Below, one piece after another: positions 11,695 through 20,127 of a stretch of DNA of 63,087 nt; position 1 is the first letter of the stretch; each line of letters starts with the position of its first letter. Origin of the DNA: Bdellovibrionales bacterium (GTDB taxonomy: Bacteria; Bdellovibrionota; Bdellovibrionia; Bdellovibrionales; UBA1609); assembly GCA_020630675.1 (NCBI GenBank), contig JAHDIR010000012.1, positions 1 to 63,087 on the forward strand, written 5' to 3'. The translations under genes were made by a program, and so were the position numbers. A model generated the notes under the pieces. That model saw only the letters and a program-made list of their open reading frames with translations, was not told the origin of the DNA and ran no database searches.

Positions 11695-11779
11695 GCTCCA
11701 GTGGTGGAATTGGTAGACACGCTAGACTTAGGATCTAGTGCCGAAAGGTGTGGAGGTTCAAGTCCTCTCTGGAGTACCA
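11695..11779 (+). tRNA. tRNA-Leu, anticodon UAG
   Basis: An 85-base cloverleaf can be drawn: acceptor GCTCCAG pairs with CTGGAGT (one G-U pair), discriminator A, and CCA is encoded. The anticodon stem CTAGA/TCTAG encloses the loop CTTAGGA, so the anticodon is TAG. A long class II variable arm fits leucine. The T-loop is TTCAAGT between GGAGG and CCTCT. Its 3' end is where the accessory block at 11.8-18.7 kb begins. Confidence 0.96.
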
Positions 11780-11862: not shown

Positions 11863-12345
11863 TTACTGTTTTCCATCACGATTATATATCCCATCAGGAC
11901 ATTTTATTTTATCAAGACTTATTTTTACACATTTGTGTAAGCTATTTGCTCCCAATAAGTCTTCTAAACTTTTTTTCACCAACAAACTTAAATTCTCTTT
12001 TTCTGAAGGTTTATTACTTAAACCTTTATATATGGTAAATAGAATTAAAAAAACCATTAGGCTAAACACTATAGGCACTGCTATTTTTTTAAATTTATAG
12101 TACTTATCTGTTTTTCTTTTGAATATTATAAACTTCTTAACTTTACTATTGTCATTAATTGTGGCACTCGGGTCTGGATGATTTCTATAGTTTTTTATTT
12201 GCTTCCATCCTATACCAGTTATATTTCGTAATTCTTTATCAAAGTCAGGGTGAGTTACTTTGTTATATTTAGCTAGGAGTTCATTGACTACTTGTTTTGT
12301 ATAGCGATTTACCTCGCATACAAGTATCTTATTTTGATTCCACAT
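11863..12345 (-). CDS. Single-pass membrane protein paired with the MotA-like gene
   Basis: A 160-residue protein of unknown family. The ATG at 12345 follows the stop of the MotA-like gene by one base; GAAGAG within that gene's end can act as ribosome binding site. A basic N-terminal cytoplasmic region of about 90 residues contains a helical segment that could be a small DNA- or protein-binding module. One membrane helix follows (IAVPIVFSLMVFLILFTIY), then about 50 periplasmic residues with two Cys (HKCVKISLDKIKCPDG) that could form a disulfide. A single-TM partner next to a MotA/ExbB-type channel recalls the MotA-MotB and ExbB-ExbD layout, but no MotB peptidoglycan-binding domain or ExbD domain is visible. 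Confidence 0.55.
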   Translation of the reverse strand: MWNQNKILVCEVNRYTKQVVNELLAKYNKVTHPDFDKELRNITGIGWKQIKNYRNHPDPSATINDNSKVKKFIIFKRKTDKYYKFKKIAVPIVFSLMVFLILFTIYKGLSNKPSEKENLSLLVKKSLEDLLGANSLHKCVKISLDKIKCPDGIYNRDGKQ

Positions 12346-12346
12346 A

Positions 12347-12751
12347 TTATTGCTCTTCAACTTGTTCAGTATTTTTTTCTAGCAGATGAAATATCAGAGA
12401 CAGCAGAAAACCATAAAATAAACACACAAAAGAGATCGCAAAAGCCTCACTAGCTCGTGAAAAATTGTCTATATTAGAGAAACACTGAATTATGGCTATG
12501 ATGGTTCCTAAAAGTCCTGAAATGATACTTAAAAATTTCCCATATTGGCAAAAAACTAATTTAGTCTTACTGTTACCAAAAAGTAAGCCAAAACCACTAA
12601 AGCCAAACCTATAAACTAGCCCACCCATTGAAATCCCAAAAACTATTATAAAAGAAGGTATATTTATAAATAACTTTAGGCTGCCTCCGAGGCTGATAGC
12701 CCCAATAATTACTATAATAACAGTCAACAAACCTAATACATTGCTCTTCAT
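12347..12751 (-). CDS. Mini MotA/TolQ/ExbB-like membrane protein
   Basis: A 134-residue, very hydrophobic protein. The N-terminal half (IIVIIGAISLGGSLKLFINI, then PSFIIVFGISMGG) matches the first helices of MotA, including the GGxLxxFIxIPS element. The C-terminal half (LLGTIIAIIQCFSNIDNF...FAISFVCLFYGFLLSLIF) matches the last two helices of the MotA/ExbB fold, with the GT and FYG motifs. The large cytoplasmic loop of MotA (about 100 residues) is missing. AGGAG precedes the ATG. A proton-driven stator-like function with its coupled downstream partner is inference from the fold. Confidence 0.6.
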   Translation of the reverse strand: MKSNVLGLLTVIIVIIGAISLGGSLKLFINIPSFIIVFGISMGGLVYRFGFSGFGLLFGNSKTKLVFCQYGKFLSIISGLLGTIIAIIQCFSNIDNFSRASEAFAISFVCLFYGFLLSLIFHLLEKNTEQVEEQ

Positions 12752-12811
12752 TTATTTCTCCTATTTAAGTATTAATTCTAAACCTTTTATCGATGAAATG
12801 TGGACTTTATA

Positions 12812-12836
12812 AACTGGAAATTTAACTTTTCCAGTT
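12812..12836. terminator. Stem-loop between the isonitrile cluster and the MotA-like pair
   Basis: Perfect 9-bp arms AACTGGAAA and TTTCCAGTT separated by 7 bases. It lies in the 417-bp gap upstream of the MotA-like gene. A following ATTTTT on the plus strand and a weaker TTTATA on the minus strand make it a possible terminator. It would separate the two minus-strand transcription units. Confidence 0.4.
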
Positions 12837-12969
12837 ATTTTTAGCACTTCCGCAATCACGAATTGTTTTTTGCTTAAATTTTTGTCTCAATATTTAGCAA
12901 ATAATATTAGGTAGAAGAAAACTTGCGACTTTCCTGGAATTAGGCTCAAAACAATCCATCAATATTTGA

Positions 12970-13134
12970 AGCTCTTTTACAATAAACTTCTTCGCGGAAA
13001 TAGAAAAGGGCAAAGGTCTGTTAAGCTTAACACCTGAGTGGTTAGTCAAAGTTGTTCTGATTTATCAGTTAAAGCAAGAGGGCTTGAAACTCAAAAATAT
13101 ATACGAATTATATAAACTCATCATTTATTATTAA
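12970..13134 (+). pseudogene. Start-less ORF fragment, possible gene remnant
   Basis: Inside the gap 12752-13168 the plus strand holds a 54-codon open frame bounded by TGA (12967) and TAA (13132). It has no ATG near its beginning. It encodes a protein-like sequence (LLSLTPEWLVKVVLIYQLKQ, then EGLKLKNIYELYKL). The pattern of a short helix followed by QLKQEGLKLKNI is reminiscent of the effector-linker helix of MerR-type regulators, but that is only suggestive. Apart from this and the stem-loop at 12812, I see nothing else in the gap. Confidence 0.3.
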
Positions 13135-13168
13135 AAATAAATTCAATTCTTATTTGGATGATTAACAC

Positions 13169-14395
13169 TTATGATATTTTTAGTGATTTTTCCATGTCTC
13201 TAATTTTTTTGTAATCTAGAAAAATACTGTCTCTTTTACCTGATAAAGCAACAATACCAAGGCTAGTAAGATAATCTACAGTTTGAGAAACCCTATCGCC
13301 ATTCTTAAACCAAATGTGTTTTTCATACAGTGTTGATAAACTAGAAATTTGTTGAAATACTTCAGCATTAGAAACTGTACCTACAGAAGGTGACTTTAAA
13401 AAAACAGGAACAACAGTTTTTTTAAATAGATATTTTTTTGTTTGAACGTCACCATCGATATAGGCCTCAACGAGTTTATCTGCTTGACTACTGCCAGTAG
13501 CTTCACGTGTAAAACTTACTGTAGGTCCTCCTAGCAGTCTGGCACCCGTTTCTATAAGTAATGGGCCTTTAGCAGTTAGCATCACCTCATTATGAGCAGC
13601 TCCCCAGCGAACACCAAGTGCATCTAATGATCTCTGAACATACTTAAATAAATCATTATGTATACCCTCCTCAAAAGGAACAAATTCTACATGGTCAAAA
13701 ACGGTTTTTCGATCACCAGATGATATTTTATTATACTTAATCAAATGAGTTAAGTAATGCTTGCCGTTGGCACTGACGGTTCCTACGGCATACTCAGTTC
13801 CAATGGCTTGCTCTTGAATAACCACTGTTTTACTTTTCTTTCCAGTTATTTTGGAAGGTTCTGATAGAATTCTATGAAAGGCTCTTTTCCAATCCTTACC
13901 TTTTGAAATATGAAACACTTTATCACTTCCGGCAGAAATTGGTGGTTTCAAAATAAGTGGAGTACTGAGTAAATCATTTTCTTTTAACCAATATTCAACG
14001 TCTCTTTCAAAAGAAGTGTTCAATGTCTTTATGACTGGTAGTCCTGCTTCTTTTAAAGCTTTTTGCATATGGGCCTTATGTAACCTGTTAATAGTTTTAT
14101 TAGGGTCATTTGAAAATTCAGGTGTTAAGTTGTTGGACAAATTTTCAGCAAGCGAAACTCCTGATTCTGTTCCTGGGATAATAGCTAAAGGATTATACTT
14201 ACGCAAAATGTTCTCAAGGTCAGGTTGCTCAGGAATAATTTTTATGAAATCTGATTTTCGTACTTTTGTTCCAAAGCCAATCCGGTCAAATGGTTTAAAA
14301 ATAACTGCTATTGAAGGAATCCCCCTAGCTTTAAAGGCGGGTGCCAGTTCAACTCCAGATGACAAAGGGTCTACGATAATAATTGGTCTTTTCAA
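13169..14395 (-). CDS. ATP-grasp carboxylate-amine ligase of the isonitrile cluster
   Basis: A 408-residue ATP-grasp enzyme. The N-terminal domain (RPIIIVDPLSSGVELAPAFK) is a Rossmann-like pre-ATP-grasp fold. TPLILKPPISAGSDKV supplies the ATP-binding Lys, TVVIQEQAIGTEYAV the hinge, and GPLLIETGARLLGG the Mg-binding Glu and following Asn-like position. The overall form is that of L-amino acid ligases and carnosine-synthase-like enzymes, which join a carboxylate to an amine through an acyl phosphate. The start is TTG at 14395 with GGAGAG 6 bases upstream. It is the last gene of the four-gene operon, 23 bp after the hydroxylase gene. Amide coupling of an isonitrile acid to an amino acid or amine is inferred. 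Confidence 0.8.
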   Translation of the reverse strand: MKRPIIIVDPLSSGVELAPAFKARGIPSIAVIFKPFDRIGFGTKVRKSDFIKIIPEQPDLENILRKYNPLAIIPGTESGVSLAENLSNNLTPEFSNDPNKTINRLHKAHMQKALKEAGLPVIKTLNTSFERDVEYWLKENDLLSTPLILKPPISAGSDKVFHISKGKDWKRAFHRILSEPSKITGKKSKTVVIQEQAIGTEYAVGTVSANGKHYLTHLIKYNKISSGDRKTVFDHVEFVPFEEGIHNDLFKYVQRSLDALGVRWGAAHNEVMLTAKGPLLIETGARLLGGPTVSFTREATGSSQADKLVEAYIDGDVQTKKYLFKKTVVPVFLKSPSVGTVSNAEVFQQISSLSTLYEKHIWFKNGDRVSQTVDYLTSLGIVALSGKRDSIFLDYKKIRDMEKSLKIS

Positions 14396-14418
14396 AAGAA
14401 ACTCTCCACTTTAATTGA

Positions 14419-15870
14419 TTAACGAATAGAAGTTGAAACAAAATTTTTAATAGATTTAATTTTATCAATAGGAACAATGGCTTGAATATAAGAGTCAGGC
14501 CTTACTAATATGGCCTGTTTTTTATAAGGGGGGGCTTTGGACCAATATTCATTTTTAACATTATCATTTAAATGTATATAAAGAATGTTTACAAAGTCAG
14601 GTAAACTGATTTTTTCTTTTGGGCTCCCAAATATCAATAGAGTATATTTTGTATAATCTAGAAGAGAGTAAAGACGAGTTTTCTTTTCATTATAAAAAAT
14701 TTCAAAATCAAAAATTCTTGTCCCAGCAAGTCCTTCTTGGCCATAGCGCACCCCCATTCCAGTAATATTTCCAGCTCTTTTTTGCACTATTTTTATATAG
14801 TCTTGTGCATGAGTTCCTTTGGCTGAATATTTTGTGGACCTTACGAGCTCACCTGATGATTCAATTACACTTTGAGCGACAGGCTTTCTTTCTTTTTCAT
14901 AAGTGTCTAACAAGTTTAAAGTATTCCCTTTTAAAGTCATATTTAATTTCCACATAAGGTTAAATGCGTCAGCAAGTCCAGTATTTAAACCTTGTCCGCC
15001 ATTTACAGAGTGAATATGACATGAGTCTCCGGCCAGAAAAACACGTTCTTTATAATGAAAATTGGAAGCAACAGACTCTTTAACAGAAAATTGTGAAAAC
15101 CAAATAACTTTCTTAAACTTTAAAGTATGTGGTTTCATAGCTCGATTAATTTTTTCTACAGCGTCATCTAAGGAAAAGGTTTTGGTGTCCATTCTCACAT
15201 AAAACCTATCAATTTCTCCTTCTCTGGGTATCCAGGCAACATCAGACGTTTCAGCTTGAAAGACAATAATTTCAGGAACTTTTGAAAAGTCGCTTTCAAT
15301 AATACCATCGATAACGGCCCATATTATTTGTGGTCGTACAATATCGAATGGAATTTTAAATTGCTTACGAACAAATGATCGAGATCCATCTGCACCAATC
15401 ACATATTTTGATTTAATTTGTTCTCCACTAGAAAGAGTGGTTGTACAGGCCTCATTATTAACTTCAATTTTATTTGTTGTGGAGCTTCTTAAAACTTTTG
15501 TATGAAGGGTCTTAAGTTTAGCGTCGAGTAATTTCTCAATATAAGCTTGCCCCAGCATTAAGAAATGTTTGTGTAAACAGCCCTCTAGGTTGTCCCACCA
15601 AAAAGATTGCCTAGAAACAAACTTGCCACTGGCCCACACAGATGAAGTGTTACACTTTTTTCCCTTAGGGAGTAGATCATTAAATAAATCCACTAACTCT
15701 AAAAGTTGTAGGGTTCTTGCATTGAGGGCATCAGCACGACCAACCTCTAAGGGCCCATCAGATTTATCAATAGCAATGACGTTTATTCCGCAAAGAGTTC
15801 CAAGGTAAGCGCACATAAGACCTACTGGGCCAGCTCCAACAACGACAATATCAACTTCTTTATTAATCAT
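14419..15870 (-). CDS. FAD-dependent aromatic hydroxylase (PHBH/TfdB type)
   Basis: A 483-residue class A flavin monooxygenase. The N-terminal VVVGAGPVGLMCAYLG is the GxGxxG FAD site, YVIGADGSRSFVRKQF is the DG motif, and FLAGDSCHIHSVNGGQGLNTG is the GD motif that holds the ribityl chain. A C-terminal thioredoxin-like extension typical of TfdB/MhpA proteins is partly present (residues 385-483). Such enzymes hydroxylate phenolic rings using NAD(P)H and O2. Its ATG overlaps the TGA of the preceding oxygenase gene (ATGA), so it belongs to the same operon. In the Pseudomonas pvc operon the hydroxylase PvcC is a different, two-component flavin type, so this would be a functional analogue at most. 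Confidence 0.85.
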   Translation of the reverse strand: MINKEVDIVVVGAGPVGLMCAYLGTLCGINVIAIDKSDGPLEVGRADALNARTLQLLELVDLFNDLLPKGKKCNTSSVWASGKFVSRQSFWWDNLEGCLHKHFLMLGQAYIEKLLDAKLKTLHTKVLRSSTTNKIEVNNEACTTTLSSGEQIKSKYVIGADGSRSFVRKQFKIPFDIVRPQIIWAVIDGIIESDFSKVPEIIVFQAETSDVAWIPREGEIDRFYVRMDTKTFSLDDAVEKINRAMKPHTLKFKKVIWFSQFSVKESVASNFHYKERVFLAGDSCHIHSVNGGQGLNTGLADAFNLMWKLNMTLKGNTLNLLDTYEKERKPVAQSVIESSGELVRSTKYSAKGTHAQDYIKIVQKRAGNITGMGVRYGQEGLAGTRIFDFEIFYNEKKTRLYSLLDYTKYTLLIFGSPKEKISLPDFVNILYIHLNDNVKNEYWSKAPPYKKQAILVRPDSYIQAIVPIDKIKSIKNFVSTSIR

Positions 15871-16703
15871 TTGTAGGTCTCCAAACCAGGGTTATTATAA
15901 GGAGGGTGACTCAAAACTTGAACTCTTCGAAGATGTCTTGAAGATCCTGATTTAAATTTTTCTCTTCCATGTAAAAGAGAAAAATTATCTGCAATGACAA
16001 CATCTCCATCTTGCCACTGATGAGCGTAAAAGTTTTCAGCATTATATAAGGCCTTATTTAGTGATTGATGAAATAAATCGACCTCTTCAAGTTTAACTCC
16101 TGAAAATTTAAGATGGGGTGTATTTATAAGGTGCCCTTTGTTTTTTAAATGAGGTTCATTGTAACGAATGACAAAAAAATTTCTTAAAGGGTGTTTGGTA
16201 ATAATAGGTGAGGCGACTTTACTATTATAAAACTCCATTTCTCTTTGATAAACACCGACCACTTTTTTCCAATGATCCTTCCAGGCTTTTGAAATATTAT
16301 TTAAAGCCAGGATCGTGTTAGAAAATGTTGTTCGTCCTCCATGTTGAGGTTTTGGGGCTTTCACACAATGAAAGAATTGATACTCAGGAATTTGAGGTCT
16401 GTACATTCCATCCCAATGAAGAGGAACATAACTATTATCAAAGATATGGTCCTTGGCATTTTTTTGTTCTACGAGATCAAGTACTTTTCCAAAGGGCCAT
16501 AGGCTAACCTCACCCCATTGTTCGCAATATTTAGAAAAGTGGTCTGAGTTTTTAAAAGTATTAAAGCCTCTTAACAAGATCAATTGAGACTTTTGGAACA
16601 ACCTTCTTAGTATTTCAATCTTAATATCTTGGATGTTACTACTTTCATTTTGTGCCTCTATCATTGTTCCAAAAGGTCTTAATTTACTAATCTGGTAAGT
16701 CAT
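15867..16703 (-). CDS. PvcB/IsnB-like Fe(II)/2-oxoglutarate-dependent oxygenase
   Basis: A 278-residue TauD-family enzyme. VPLHWDGMYRPQIPEYQFFH contains the HxD iron site in the HWDGMY form typical of PvcB/IsnB. DNFSLLHGREKF gives the distal His, and the Arg of SSRHLRRVQVL should hold 2-oxoglutarate. In known pathways this enzyme converts the isocyano amino acid made by PvcA/IsnA into a vinyl isonitrile, with or without loss of the carboxylate. I choose the ATG at 16703, which has AAAGGA about 7 bases upstream and begins one base after the pvcA-like stop, over the in-frame start at 16739. It overlaps the hydroxylase gene by 4 bp. Confidence 0.88.
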   Translation of the reverse strand: MTYQISKLRPFGTMIEAQNESSNIQDIKIEILRRLFQKSQLILLRGFNTFKNSDHFSKYCEQWGEVSLWPFGKVLDLVEQKNAKDHIFDNSYVPLHWDGMYRPQIPEYQFFHCVKAPKPQHGGRTTFSNTILALNNISKAWKDHWKKVVGVYQREMEFYNSKVASPIITKHPLRNFFVIRYNEPHLKNKGHLINTPHLKFSGVKLEEVDLFHQSLNKALYNAENFYAHQWQDGDVVIADNFSLLHGREKFKSGSSRHLRRVQVLSHPPYNNPGLETYK

Positions 16704-16704
16704 A

Positions 16705-17772
16705 TTAAATTCCTTTGAATGAGATATGTTTATGGTCATCTAATTTATAATGACTGGGGCGACCTGCAGAATCATGAATCAACTCGGCACCTAATTCGAT
16801 AGCTTTATGACGTTTAAGCAGGACAAAACCTTTTTTTGTTTGCAGGGCAACTCCGTGCCAAGGAGTCATCCAAGACTCATTACCAATAAGGCGTATTCCA
16901 AGCTTTTTGGCTCCACAAGTCTGCGGATGAATAGAAAGGCGAACTGCCTCAGGAAACCGCATTGCAATTAAATCACTCCAAGCATTACTTCTTCGAATAA
17001 CTTCATAGGCTTTAGTTTTTGCTTGTCTTTGAATAAAGGTTCGACTTTTTGTTTGGCCAGGTATTAAAGAGTCTTCAAATAAAAAACGTGTTATTCCACA
17101 AAACATTCGATGAGCTTCTTGATCTTCAGGTTTTGCCTCTGCCCTTGTGCCGTTTCGAACTTTATGTTTAAGAACATCTAAAGAGTTTCCAAATGTCTTC
17201 ATCAATTCGTCTCTCATTTGAACAAAGCTTAATTCTTTATAAAAATTATCTAAATTATATGTTGTTATGTCTAAGGCAGACATTTCTTTAATAAGTCTAT
17301 TTATTTCAACCTGATAGGCCGTTACGTTACTTTCTTTCATGCCAATGATGTCACTAAAAACTCTTCCATCTGAGCACAAAATAATTTTTATGCCTGGAGA
17401 GTAAAATTTTTTAATTTTTTGGCAAAGCTTTCCAAGAAACTGAAGAGAAAGCCTTTCAGCATAATCAGGCAAAGGCCCCAATACTTTATGACTATTCGGT
17501 GATTTACCTGGAAAAGCTGGTAGTACAAAAGTAACAGGATTTTTGGTTTTAACGGCTGAAATTACCTTTGGTAAACGATAAGATGAGCAAGACTGACATT
17601 TTGAGTTCTTACAAAAATTATTATATCTTGGTGAGCGACGGTAGTTCATAAATTCTTGAAGTATTTTTTCTGCCATTTTTATTTGTAAACTATTGGCTAA
17701 TAAATGATTAGAGTTATAGCCTGTCGTTATTTGGCTTTGAGCTGAATCAAATTGAAATGCTGTGTTTTTCAT
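16705..17772 (-). CDS. PvcA/IsnA-like isocyanide (isonitrile) synthase
   Basis: A 355-residue member of the DIT1/PvcA family. Diagnostic stretches are LPAFPGKSPN, KVLGPLPDYAERLSLQFL, IKIILCSDGRVFSDI, AYEVIRRSNAWSDLIAMRFP, LSIHPQ and WMTPWHGVA. Characterised members install an isocyanide on the amino group of tyrosine or tryptophan using ribulose 5-phosphate as the carbon source. The substrate here is not decided by sequence. An N-terminal cysteine cluster (CKNSKCQSCSSY, residues 54-65) is present and may bind metal. It is the first gene of a tightly packed minus-strand operon with oxygenase, hydroxylase and ATP-grasp genes. A LysR gene diverges from it across 84 bp. Confidence 0.92.
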   Translation of the reverse strand: MKNTAFQFDSAQSQITTGYNSNHLLANSLQIKMAEKILQEFMNYRRSPRYNNFCKNSKCQSCSSYRLPKVISAVKTKNPVTFVLPAFPGKSPNSHKVLGPLPDYAERLSLQFLGKLCQKIKKFYSPGIKIILCSDGRVFSDIIGMKESNVTAYQVEINRLIKEMSALDITTYNLDNFYKELSFVQMRDELMKTFGNSLDVLKHKVRNGTRAEAKPEDQEAHRMFCGITRFLFEDSLIPGQTKSRTFIQRQAKTKAYEVIRRSNAWSDLIAMRFPEAVRLSIHPQTCGAKKLGIRLIGNESWMTPWHGVALQTKKGFVLLKRHKAIELGAELIHDSAGRPSHYKLDDHKHISFKGI

Positions 17773-17813
17773 AAATTTATCCCCCTCAATAATTTTTACA
17801 AATATTTAAGAAA

Positions 17814-17833
17814 TAAATAAAATGACTTATTTA
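17814..17833. promoter_or_regulatory. Inverted repeat in the LysR/isocyanide-synthase promoter gap
   Basis: Perfect 7-bp arms TAAATAA and TTATTTA with a 6-base spacer. It sits in the 84-bp divergent gap where a LysR-type regulator would bind. The gap is very AT-rich, so a chance palindrome cannot be excluded. Confidence 0.35.
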
Positions 17834-17856
17834 AATTACTGTAATATAAAATATTT

Positions 17857-18690
17857 ATGTCTTTAGTTATGGATGATGTTAAATACTTCCTTGCAGCCAG
17901 TGAAACTCTTAATATTACAAGAGCTTCAGAAATAATTGGTATTTCCCAACCAGCTCTTAGTTATGCGATTAAAAGATTAGAAAACGAACTTGGGGGCCAG
18001 CTTCTTATTCGTTTAAAAAATGGAATACAGCTCACTAAACTTGGTGAGGAGTTTAAAGTTCGTTGTCGCCGTTTAATATATGAATGGGAACAGGCTCAAA
18101 ACTTAGCCAAGCCTGAAACAGGCTTTATTCAAGGTTGTTATACTTTTGCAATTCACCCATCTGTTGCTTTGTATTCTTTAGGCTTTTTTATACCAAAACT
18201 TCAATCAGACTTTCTAGGGCTAGATTTTAAATTTATACATGGACTTTCAAGAGAAATGACTGAAAAAGTGATTAGTTGGGAAGCTGATTTTGGAATAGTC
18301 GTTAACCCGATTAAGCACCCTGATCTTGTCATTCGAAAGTTGTATACGGATGAGGTAACTATTTTTTATGCAAAAAATACGCAAGACAAACTTATTTATG
18401 ATCAAAACTTAGCTCAATCGCAATATATATTAAAAAAAATGGGTAAAAAGAATTTTTTTTCAGGTGAAATTAATTCTGGAAATTTGGAGCTAGTTGCTAA
18501 GCTCACAGCTCTCGGAATAGGCTATGGTCTTCTGCCCGCGACAATTGCCTCTCAATACGCTCATCTCAAAAGACTTACTGGAGCTCCGATATTTAAAGAC
18601 GAGGTTTGCTTGGTTTACAGGCCTGAAAAGCACAATAATGTAACTAGTAAAAAAATAATTCAAGTTATGAAGAACTCTAAATTTGAGTAA
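17857..18690 (+). CDS. LysR-family transcriptional regulator
   Basis: A 277-residue regulator. Residues 1-62 form the winged helix-turn-helix (YFLAASETLNITRASEIIGI, then SQPALSYAIKRLENELGG). The remainder has the two-lobed periplasmic-binding-like effector domain, slightly shorter than the usual 300 residues. There is no good Shine-Dalgarno before the ATG at 17857; the second ATG at 17869 is an alternative. It is divergent from the isocyanide synthase operon across 84 bp, the classical layout for a LysR protein that controls the neighbouring operon and itself. The effector is unknown and could be a pathway intermediate. Confidence 0.9.
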   Translation: MSLVMDDVKYFLAASETLNITRASEIIGISQPALSYAIKRLENELGGQLLIRLKNGIQLTKLGEEFKVRCRRLIYEWEQAQNLAKPETGFIQGCYTFAIHPSVALYSLGFFIPKLQSDFLGLDFKFIHGLSREMTEKVISWEADFGIVVNPIKHPDLVIRKLYTDEVTIFYAKNTQDKLIYDQNLAQSQYILKKMGKKNFFSGEINSGNLELVAKLTALGIGYGLLPATIASQYAHLKRLTGAPIFKDEVCLVYRPEKHNNVTSKKIIQVMKNSKFE

Positions 18691-18846
18691 TATTTCTTGG
18701 TTTTAAATAACTAGCCATTTACTTCTCGTACGGCTTATTTTAGTAAATATCTAGAACTACTCATTAAATATTGATTGTTTTTTATGCAGAGGTGCTGTTA
18801 GTATGGCGCTGAATAGGCTAGCTGTAGGCCCTTAACCTTTTTTAAA

Positions 18847-20127
18847 GTGAATATTGTGAGCTTAGATTACGAAAAAAAATTTCCGACATTAATTCCTCAA
18901 ACTCTCTTCTCTCATTTAGATGAACAAGAGCAGCAAGAGGTTAAAATTATGGCTTTTGAGCATAGGTTTACCTTGCAAGAGTTAAAAAAAATAGTGGAAG
19001 GCACTATCGACCTAAGAATGTGGAATGAGGGTCAGCTGTCAGATCGTTGGAAATCTTTCCAAAAATCTTCTGATTTAAAAGGAAGAGAATTTAAAAAGTG
19101 GGCATTTCTTCAACTAGAAAATGAAATGAACCAATTAAAAAATAACTCTTTTCATTTCAAACAAAAACCAGAATTACCGGGCTCTTATAAAGTCACTAAA
19201 AAAGAATTAACTAAAGAAGACCGCTCTAAAGAAGTGTTTGGTATGTGTGCTGTTCAGTCAGAAAAAACAAGCTGCTGTAACTTAAGAACCATAGATGCTG
19301 TTAAGAACTGTGGTTTTGGCTGCAGCTACTGCAGTATTCAAACAATGTACGGAAATGAAAAAGTTGTTTTTGATGAAAACCTCCAGGATAAACTAGATAG
19401 TTTATCGCTTGATAAAAATAAACTTTATCATATTGGTACTGGGCAAGCCTCTGACTCCTTGATGTGGGGTAATCAGCATGGTGTTTTAGATTCTATGCTG
19501 GGTTTTGCAAAAAAGTGGCCCAATGTTTTGCTGGAGTTTAAAACAAAATCTAAAAATGTCAGGCACCTTTTAAAAGTAGATACACCTAAAAATATAGTTT
19601 GTTCTTGGTCTGTAAACCCGCAAGCCGTGATTGAAAATGAAGAACATTTGACAGCCAGCCTTGAAGACCGACTTAAAGCAGCCGAAGCTTGTGTGAGTAA
19701 AGGAATCAAAGTTGGATTTCATTTACACCCAATGATATTTTATAGAGACTGGGAGGCTGATTATTCTCAAATGATTGATAATATTGTAAGCCGCTTCAAA
19801 CCATCTGATGTATTGTTTATTTCTTTTGGCTCTTTAACTTTCTCAAAGCCTGTGATGAAAAAAATACGTCAATACAATATTAATAGTAAAATGTTGCAAA
19901 TGCCTATGGTCTCTAATCCAGAAGGTAAACAAACTTACCCAAACTCTCTAAAAGCCAAAATGTTTTCATTGGCCTATGATCAATTTAAAAGCTGGCAAAA
20001 AGAGGTTTACTTCTTTTTATGTATGGAAGAGTACAGTTTGTGGGACTCTACATTTGGCCATAAATATAAAAACAATGAAGAGTTTGAAGACGATTTCATG
20101 AAACAAGTTTTTCAAAAAATTAAATAA
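18847..20127 (+). CDS. Spore-photolyase-like (SplB-type) radical SAM protein
   Basis: A 426-residue radical SAM protein. The [4Fe-4S] ligands are in CGFGCSYC (CxxxCxxC, about residue 156). Downstream stretches LEFKTKSKNVRHLL, CSWSVNP, then HLTASLEDRLKAAEACVSKG, VGFHLHPMIFYRDWEADY and FLCMEEYSLW follow the order of spore photoproduct lyase and its relatives. True SP lyase splits the thymine photoproduct of spores with SAM chemistry. FLCMEEYSLW could supply the cysteine that acts as H-atom donor in SPL, but that mapping needs alignment. The start GTG at 18847 has only a weak binding site; GTG at 18856 is an alternative. It is a lone gene, convergent with ftsK. Confidence 0.75.
   Translation: MNIVSLDYEKKFPTLIPQTLFSHLDEQEQQEVKIMAFEHRFTLQELKKIVEGTIDLRMWNEGQLSDRWKSFQKSSDLKGREFKKWAFLQLENEMNQLKNNSFHFKQKPELPGSYKVTKKELTKEDRSKEVFGMCAVQSEKTSCCNLRTIDAVKNCGFGCSYCSIQTMYGNEKVVFDENLQDKLDSLSLDKNKLYHIGTGQASDSLMWGNQHGVLDSMLGFAKKWPNVLLEFKTKSKNVRHLLKVDTPKNIVCSWSVNPQAVIENEEHLTASLEDRLKAAEACVSKGIKVGFHLHPMIFYRDWEADYSQMIDNIVSRFKPSDVLFISFGSLTFSKPVMKKIRQYNINSKMLQMPMVSNPEGKQTYPNSLKAKMFSLAYDQFKSWQKEVYFFLCMEEYSLWDSTFGHKYKNNEEFEDDFMKQVFQKIK

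Follow-up and report, generated by a model that had tools for sequence, protein, structure and literature searches.

A LysR-linked isonitrile synthase cassette with a class A FAD hydroxylase and an optional ATP-grasp ligase in a Bdellovibrionales bacterium and distant relatives

The DNA analyzed here, a stretch of 63,087 nucleotides from a Bdellovibrionales bacterium (hereafter, the window), raises the question of why genes for a flavin-dependent hydroxylase and an ATP-grasp ligase stand behind those for an isonitrile synthase and its partner oxygenase, and what such a set of enzymes might make. Four genes lie on the minus strand in the order PvcA, PvcB, class A FAD hydroxylase, and ATP-grasp ligase; they encode a PvcA-type isonitrile (isocyanide) synthase of 355 residues (16705..17772; PF05141, DIT1_PvcA, 1.6e-74), a PvcB/IsnB-type FeII/2-oxoglutarate oxygenase of 290 residues (15867..16739; TauD, 9.4e-48), a phenol-hydroxylase-like class A FAD monooxygenase of 483 residues (14419..15870; FAD_binding_3, 6.4e-60), and a ligase of 408 residues resembling L-amino-acid ligases and DdaF (13169..14395; ATP-grasp_4, 1.7e-14), whose TTG start codon occupies the position of ATG or GTG starts in its homologues. 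The identities given to these genes in a sequence-only reading of the window hold, the hydroxylase and ligase reading frames both being present and the family profiles agreeing. The 35-bp overlap of the PvcA and PvcB genes, the 4-bp overlap of the PvcB and FAD enzyme genes, and the 23-bp gap between the latter and the ligase gene indicate one operon read as one transcript; promoter and terminator scans of the cluster gave chance-level hits only, and no RNA element was found within it. Divergent from pvcA on the plus strand is the gene for a LysR-type regulator with HTH_1 and LysR_substrate domains (17857..18690).

The sequence-only reading had regarded the hydroxylase and ligase as an unusual tailoring pair. 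The pair is real and belongs to the isonitrile cluster, recurring in the same order in distant genomes; it is, however, a conserved type of cassette rather than a one-off. Among 20 loci obtained by a PvcA search of genome contigs, the FAD enzyme gene directly follows that of PvcB in 19 (cut by the contig end in L011), the exception being L013, one of two Uabimicrobium loci, and the ligase gene comes next, directly or past one gene, in 13. The intervening gene encodes an MFS transporter in L001 and a similar-looking protein in L003 and L012. The co-occurrence of synthase, oxygenase, hydroxylase, and ATP-grasp protein, for which a neighborhood search had been proposed, was found in Legionella, a Coxiellaceae MAG, Obscuribacterales/Cyanobacteria MAGs, and other Bdellovibrionota, and Uabimicrobium is a further host of the cassette. 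The full order, with LysR preceding PvcA-PvcB-FAD-(MFS)-ligase, is seen in Legionella (L001-L005, L007, L009, L010, and L016), Coxiellaceae (L019), and Bdellovibrionota (G131 and G134); the three Obscuribacterales loci (L012, L014, and L015) keep the order of the enzymes, and no LysR orthologue was found in them. Several loci with the FAD enzyme (among them L006, L017, and L020) have no ligase, and the ligase is unlinked to pvcAB, although PvcA is present in the same genome, in G108, G358, G359, and G253 (Uabimicrobium); in G354 it sits beyond LysR, inside the same few kilobases. PvcA-PvcB fusions occur in L013 and L166. Two cassettes appear damaged: in L172:11050-12116 (genome G321) PvcA is split into two reading frames, and in L178:7501-8662 (G151) PvcA is missing, with both PvcB (201 residues) and LysR (175 residues) shortened.

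The same association appears at the level of whole genomes. Within a sample of 384, composed of 241 of Bdellovibrionota and 143 of the Legionella order, the FAD enzyme was found in 41, 40 of them also having an isonitrile synthase (G151 being the exception), and the ligase orthologue in 25, every one with both FAD enzyme and synthase. PvcA is present in 27 of the Bdellovibrionota genomes and the FAD family PRK07190 in 18, 17 of these with PvcA, while four, that of the window and three more with 57-62% identity, carry the ligase orthologue, each together with PvcA and the FAD enzyme; the corresponding numbers for the Legionella order are 51 for PvcA, 23 for the FAD family (all with PvcA), and 21 for the ligase (all with both). 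Fisher tests of ligase-FAD enzyme co-occurrence, in which the relatedness of the genomes was left uncorrected, gave 3e-23 and 2e-5. The FAD enzyme is thus a core member of the cassette, and the ligase, though optional, is strictly associated with it.

These distributions bear on the view that the FAD enzyme and ATP-grasp genes are unrelated or housekeeping neighbors placed behind pvcAB by chance, for which we found no support other than the wide occurrence of the ATP-grasp superfamily, housekeeping enzymes included. The sequence-only reading had named clustering of the ATP-grasp protein with a housekeeping family in synthase-free genomes as the observation that would tell against a tailoring role. 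What was found is a separate clade of cassette ligases (support 100/100, on a long stem), confined to genomes having both PvcA and the FAD enzyme. Other matches to the PRK07206 profile, most of them from PvcA-free genomes, are 26-36% identical and fall outside this clade; because those from PvcA-free genomes (26-34% identity) do so as well, a housekeeping ligase was rejected. Given in addition the recurrent synteny and the restricted co-occurrence, chance neighborhood was likewise rejected and is, in our judgment, hardly credible.

What, then, is the ligase? It matches NCBIfam PRK07206 at 498 bits (cut-off 302), its best solved relative in sequence is 30vh, an 'L-amino acid ligase' aligned over almost the full length (E 1.9e-40), and its AlphaFold2 model (pLDDT 92.6) has as top structural matches BL00235 (3VOT, Z 34.3), YwfE/BacD (Z 31-32), and RizA (Z 29), with purine-pathway ATP-grasp enzymes matching from Z 30.7 downward. 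As judged from its sequence and predicted fold, it is closest to the L-amino-acid ligases, in agreement with the earlier assignment as amino-acid-ligase-like; to the DdaF profile NF041595 it scores 155 bits, far below the cut-off of 840. The conserved ATP/Mg residues, K150, E270, E282, and R286, are invariant in 48/48 sequences. The ligase shares these residues and the ATP-grasp fold with DdaF (dapdiamide), BacD/YwfE (bacilysin), BL00235, and RizA, but is only 15-17% identical to the solved BacD, BL00235, and RizA and forms a clade of its own that is tied to isonitrile clusters. The distant relatives examined adjoin apparent small-molecule clusters, bacABC-like in L176, NRPS-like in L179, and diiron-oxidase in L162, L180, and L181, which makes a role as a tailoring ligase plausible for the family. 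Two of these neighborhoods deserve mention in their own right: L176:7487-12584, of the Legionella order, contains a bacABC-like set (prephenate dehydratase-like, cupin, and SDR proteins) with a DdaF-like ATP-grasp ligase and is a possible anticapsin-dipeptide cluster; and plasmids of Pantoea dispersa and Methylobacterium indicum (L180:4045-9263 and L181:5176-9233) carry genes for a haem-oxygenase-like diiron protein, a Rieske protein, a methyltransferase, and an ATP-grasp ligase, accompanied in Pantoea by an MFS gene, a similar diiron-ligase pair being present in L162.

The optional nature of the ligase, which is lacking in several FAD enzyme-bearing loci, would be accommodated if it left the isonitrile scaffold alone and made a separate amino-acid conjugate or dipeptide, co-regulated or co-exported with the isonitrile, or protective. 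Uabimicrobium fits such a division of labor, since its ligase gene is paired with one for an MFS transporter (L114:7212-9604), away from both pvcA loci. Three observations nevertheless make a separate product improbable: in Legionella steigerwaltii (L007) the hydroxylase and ligase are fused in a single reading frame of 900 residues; the ligase is never found without the FAD enzyme in the 384 genomes; and the four enzymes have diverged in a correlated manner, their pairwise distance matrices over 24 genomes agreeing with r of 0.87-0.91.

If the ligase acts on the isonitrile scaffold, the chemical group available to it depends on the two enzymes that precede it. PvcA exceeds the PF05141 cut-off over the whole domain (251 bits versus 26.4) and has P. 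aeruginosa PvcA (3E59, E 3.6e-74) as its closest solved relative, but falls below the cut-off of the Tyr-specific equivalog NF045653 (282 versus 600 bits); we infer from the family and from the phenol-type hydroxylase encoded downstream that it makes the isonitrile from tyrosine. In PvcB, the iron ligands H108, D110, and H257 and the carboxylate-holding R272 are all intact. Decarboxylating enzymes of this family have Lys/Arg at the position of PIsnB residue 107 and Asn/His at 188, whereas the carboxylate-retaining PvcB type has Leu and Cys, a rule confirmed on one additional enzyme in the same 2022 study (PMC9467999). The window PvcB has R114 aligned with K107 and N194 with N188 of 7TCL, that is, the PIsnB signature instead of the Leu/Cys pair, and that pair was seen in none of the ligase-bearing clusters examined. 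Arg is present at the first position in 36/36 relatives and Asn at the second in 31/36, the others having Cys, Gly, or Met. The two Cys copies (G197 and G060) and the one Met copy are in ligase-free loci, and the two Gly copies are in ligase-bearing Obscuribacterales. The predicted product of PvcB is accordingly a vinyl isonitrile, in clusters with and without the ligase alike, and the scaffold carboxylate intended for the ligase has probably been lost.

The sequence-only reading had made its proposal conditional on retention of that carboxylate by PvcB, a condition disfavored by the R114/N194 signature of the window PvcB and of most of its relatives. In a model along these lines, either PvcB yields an isocyanoacrylate or the ligase acts before PvcB, and the isocyano acid is joined to an amine or amino acid to give an amide-linked hydroxylated isonitrile. 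Its chemistry is attractive in that the ligase family activates carboxylates and forms amide bonds, and isonitrile-tyrosine, with a carboxylate and no free amine, could serve as acyl donor only. The two-residue rule, moreover, is not decisive: single swaps at the two positions in PIsnB-Ah leave the product unchanged (PMC9467999). Set against the amide are the decarboxylating signature, which the window PvcB shares with almost every ligase-bearing cluster, the identical signature residues in ligase-free clusters, the lack of the ligase in the loci with Cys at the second position, and the invariance over 36 relatives of R272, whose counterpart in PIsnB secures the free carboxylate. We consider amide formation through the PvcB carboxylate the less likely version, unlikely on balance but with a real share of the probability.

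The FAD enzyme matches PRK07190 at 855 bits (cut-off 530), and among solved structures it is closest to VibO and phenol hydroxylases, class A flavoproteins with which it shares both the FAD motifs (GxGxxG at G12/G14/G17, DG at D161-G162, and GD at G281-D282) and an Asp-Arg-Tyr triad. The triad residues D47, R216, and Y224 align with Asp54, Arg281, and Tyr289 of phenol hydroxylase 1PN0, which have catalytic roles in that enzyme, and are invariant in 48/48 cassette FAD enzymes; this fits ortho-hydroxylation of a phenol and hence a tyrosine-derived substrate. The window enzyme differs from 1PN0 in being shorter (483 versus 665 residues) and in belonging to a family of its own.

The reading that we prefer, with a probability of about one half, is that the LysR-linked cassette directs the synthesis of a tyrosine-derived, decarboxylated vinyl isonitrile, its conversion to a catechol, and, where the ligase is present, its conjugation with an amino acid. 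In the first step, PvcA would convert the amine of L-tyrosine to an isonitrile, giving isonitrile-tyrosine, from which PvcB of the PIsnB type would, according to the two-residue rule, produce 4-hydroxystyryl isonitrile by desaturation and loss of CO2. The class A FAD enzyme may then hydroxylate the phenol ring to the catechol. As an optional late tailoring step, the ligase would convert a carboxylate to the acyl phosphate and join an amino acid to the scaffold; since the scaffold probably has no carboxylate of its own, the amino acid is the likelier acyl donor, with a phenol or catechol oxygen of the scaffold, or a nitrogen derived from it, as acceptor. Export may be provided by the MFS protein whose gene, in several relatives, separates those of the hydroxylase and ligase. 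Conserved gene order, co-occurrence, fusions, correlated distances, the PvcB, FAD enzyme, and ligase residues, and a shared intergenic 19-mer are in favor of this pathway. Weighing on the other side, the predicted decarboxylation depends on two residues in a PvcB that is about equally distant from 7TCL (264 bits) and 3EAT (258 bits), and the two ligase-bearing Obscuribacterales copies carry Gly in place of Asn or His at the second of them. Members of this amino-acid ligase family make amides, and a phenol ester would be unusual, which argues for a retained carboxylate; a decarboxylated scaffold having neither amine nor carboxylate needs an oxygen acceptor, and it is this that leaves the amide its share.

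Compared with known isonitrile clusters, the cassette resembles pvcABCD of P. aeruginosa (paerucumarin) in that PvcA and PvcB homologues are followed by flavin-dependent ring hydroxylation, but P. aeruginosa PvcB is of the carboxylate-retaining Leu/Cys type, the cassette has no PvcD, and a ligase is added. PvcC is a two-component hydroxylase; the sole hydroxylase of the window operon is instead the class A FAD_binding_3 enzyme, which, judging from its family and triad, would be a non-homologous stand-in for PvcC. With isnAB of Xenorhabdus and Photorhabdus (rhabduscin and byelyankacin) the cassette shares an isonitrile synthase, an oxygenase with the PIsnB signature, and a predicted 4-hydroxystyryl isonitrile core. 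In rhabduscin and byelyankacin, a glycosyltransferase decorates the phenol, whereas the cassette has a ring hydroxylase together with an amino-acid ligase, and no glycosyltransferase occurs among the reading frames at 11863-20127.

In Legionella, pvcAB homologues are iron-regulated and linked to biofilms (PMC11705809, PMC4256840), and an isnAB cluster has been described in which an HTH protein and a P450 are said to be always present (PMC5126622). That P450-type cluster has the order LysR-type gene, PvcA, PvcB in common with the window, but its PvcA and PvcB are ~40% and ~31-35% identical, its third gene encodes a P450 (PF00067 in L163), and the FAD enzyme and ligase are absent; identity of the cassette with this cluster was rejected on account of the third gene. 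This second type of Legionella isonitrile cluster is represented by L163, L164, L165, and L173, which have LysR-like, PvcA, and PvcB genes and a third gene of ~400 codons (the P450 in L163) but lack both FAD enzyme and ligase. Legionella longbeachae (L191:4054-10336) carries, ~17 kb from its cassette, a divergent isonitrile synthase with an NRPS of 1113 residues (A-T-C) and a TauD-like oxygenase, a second synthase being similarly spaced from the cassette in G242, G314, and G326. Yet another variant is found on a Hymenobacter plasmid (L182:6335-11349), with an isonitrile synthase, a TauD-UbiA fusion, and an FAD oxidoreductase; as a counterpart of the window FAD enzyme this oxidoreductase was rejected (E 0.22). 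In the literature searched, mostly without subscription papers, no description of the FAD-plus-ligase cassette was found, and searches for isonitriles with ATP-grasp or L-amino acid ligases returned nothing relevant by title or abstract. The cassette is best filed as a new variety of bacterial isonitrile synthase cluster.

Isonitriles are ligands of iron and copper, capable of inhibiting copper enzymes (phenoloxidase, for example), and are therefore relevant to contests between bacteria and their hosts or prey. Here, a member of the predatory Bdellovibrio group has a compact isonitrile gene set that is also present in Legionella and other distant bacteria, and the cassette with its candidate operator extends across several deep lineages, including amoeba-infecting, engulfing, and predatory bacteria. 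We tentatively suggest, at somewhat less than even odds, that it represents a widely exchanged, NRPS-free pathway to amino-acid-conjugated catechol isonitriles in such bacteria. Coupling of an amino acid to an isonitrile scaffold would then have its first demonstrated enzyme in this ligase, and, with the scaffold carboxylate gone, the bond might be of a new kind; such a step, if it takes place, would bring amino-acid conjugates within isonitrile chemistry. With so few genes, the cassette can be rebuilt in a laboratory host and its product read directly.

The regulator is conserved together with the enzymes, its gene being divergent from pvcA in 14 of the 20 loci and the protein 68-85% identical at the same position in Legionella, Coxiellaceae, and Bdellovibrionota. 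The 84-bp region between the LysR and PvcA genes of the window contains the 19-mer AATAAGTCATTTTATTTAT (17813..17831, minus strand), for which the intergenic site is the sole exact match in the 3.1-Mb genome. It recurs exactly and in the same place in L002, L004, L006, L009, L017, and L172, and with one to four mismatches in most other loci having the LysR gene, and is likely, as a candidate, to be the LysR operator. Upstream of unlinked ligase genes no such operator was found, apart from one weak site with four mismatches in L161.

Beyond the LysR gene, the window encodes a radical SAM protein of the spore photoproduct lyase family (18847-20127). On the other side, after a gap of 417 bp and on the same strand as the operon, lie genes for a short MotA/PomA-like membrane protein (134 residues) and a protein of 165 residues without known family (11863-12751), neither showing a tie to the cassette. 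A tRNA gene (11695-11776) is located ~1.4 kb past the ligase end, and the GC content falls to 32% at 12-14 kb, suggestive of a possible insertion site.
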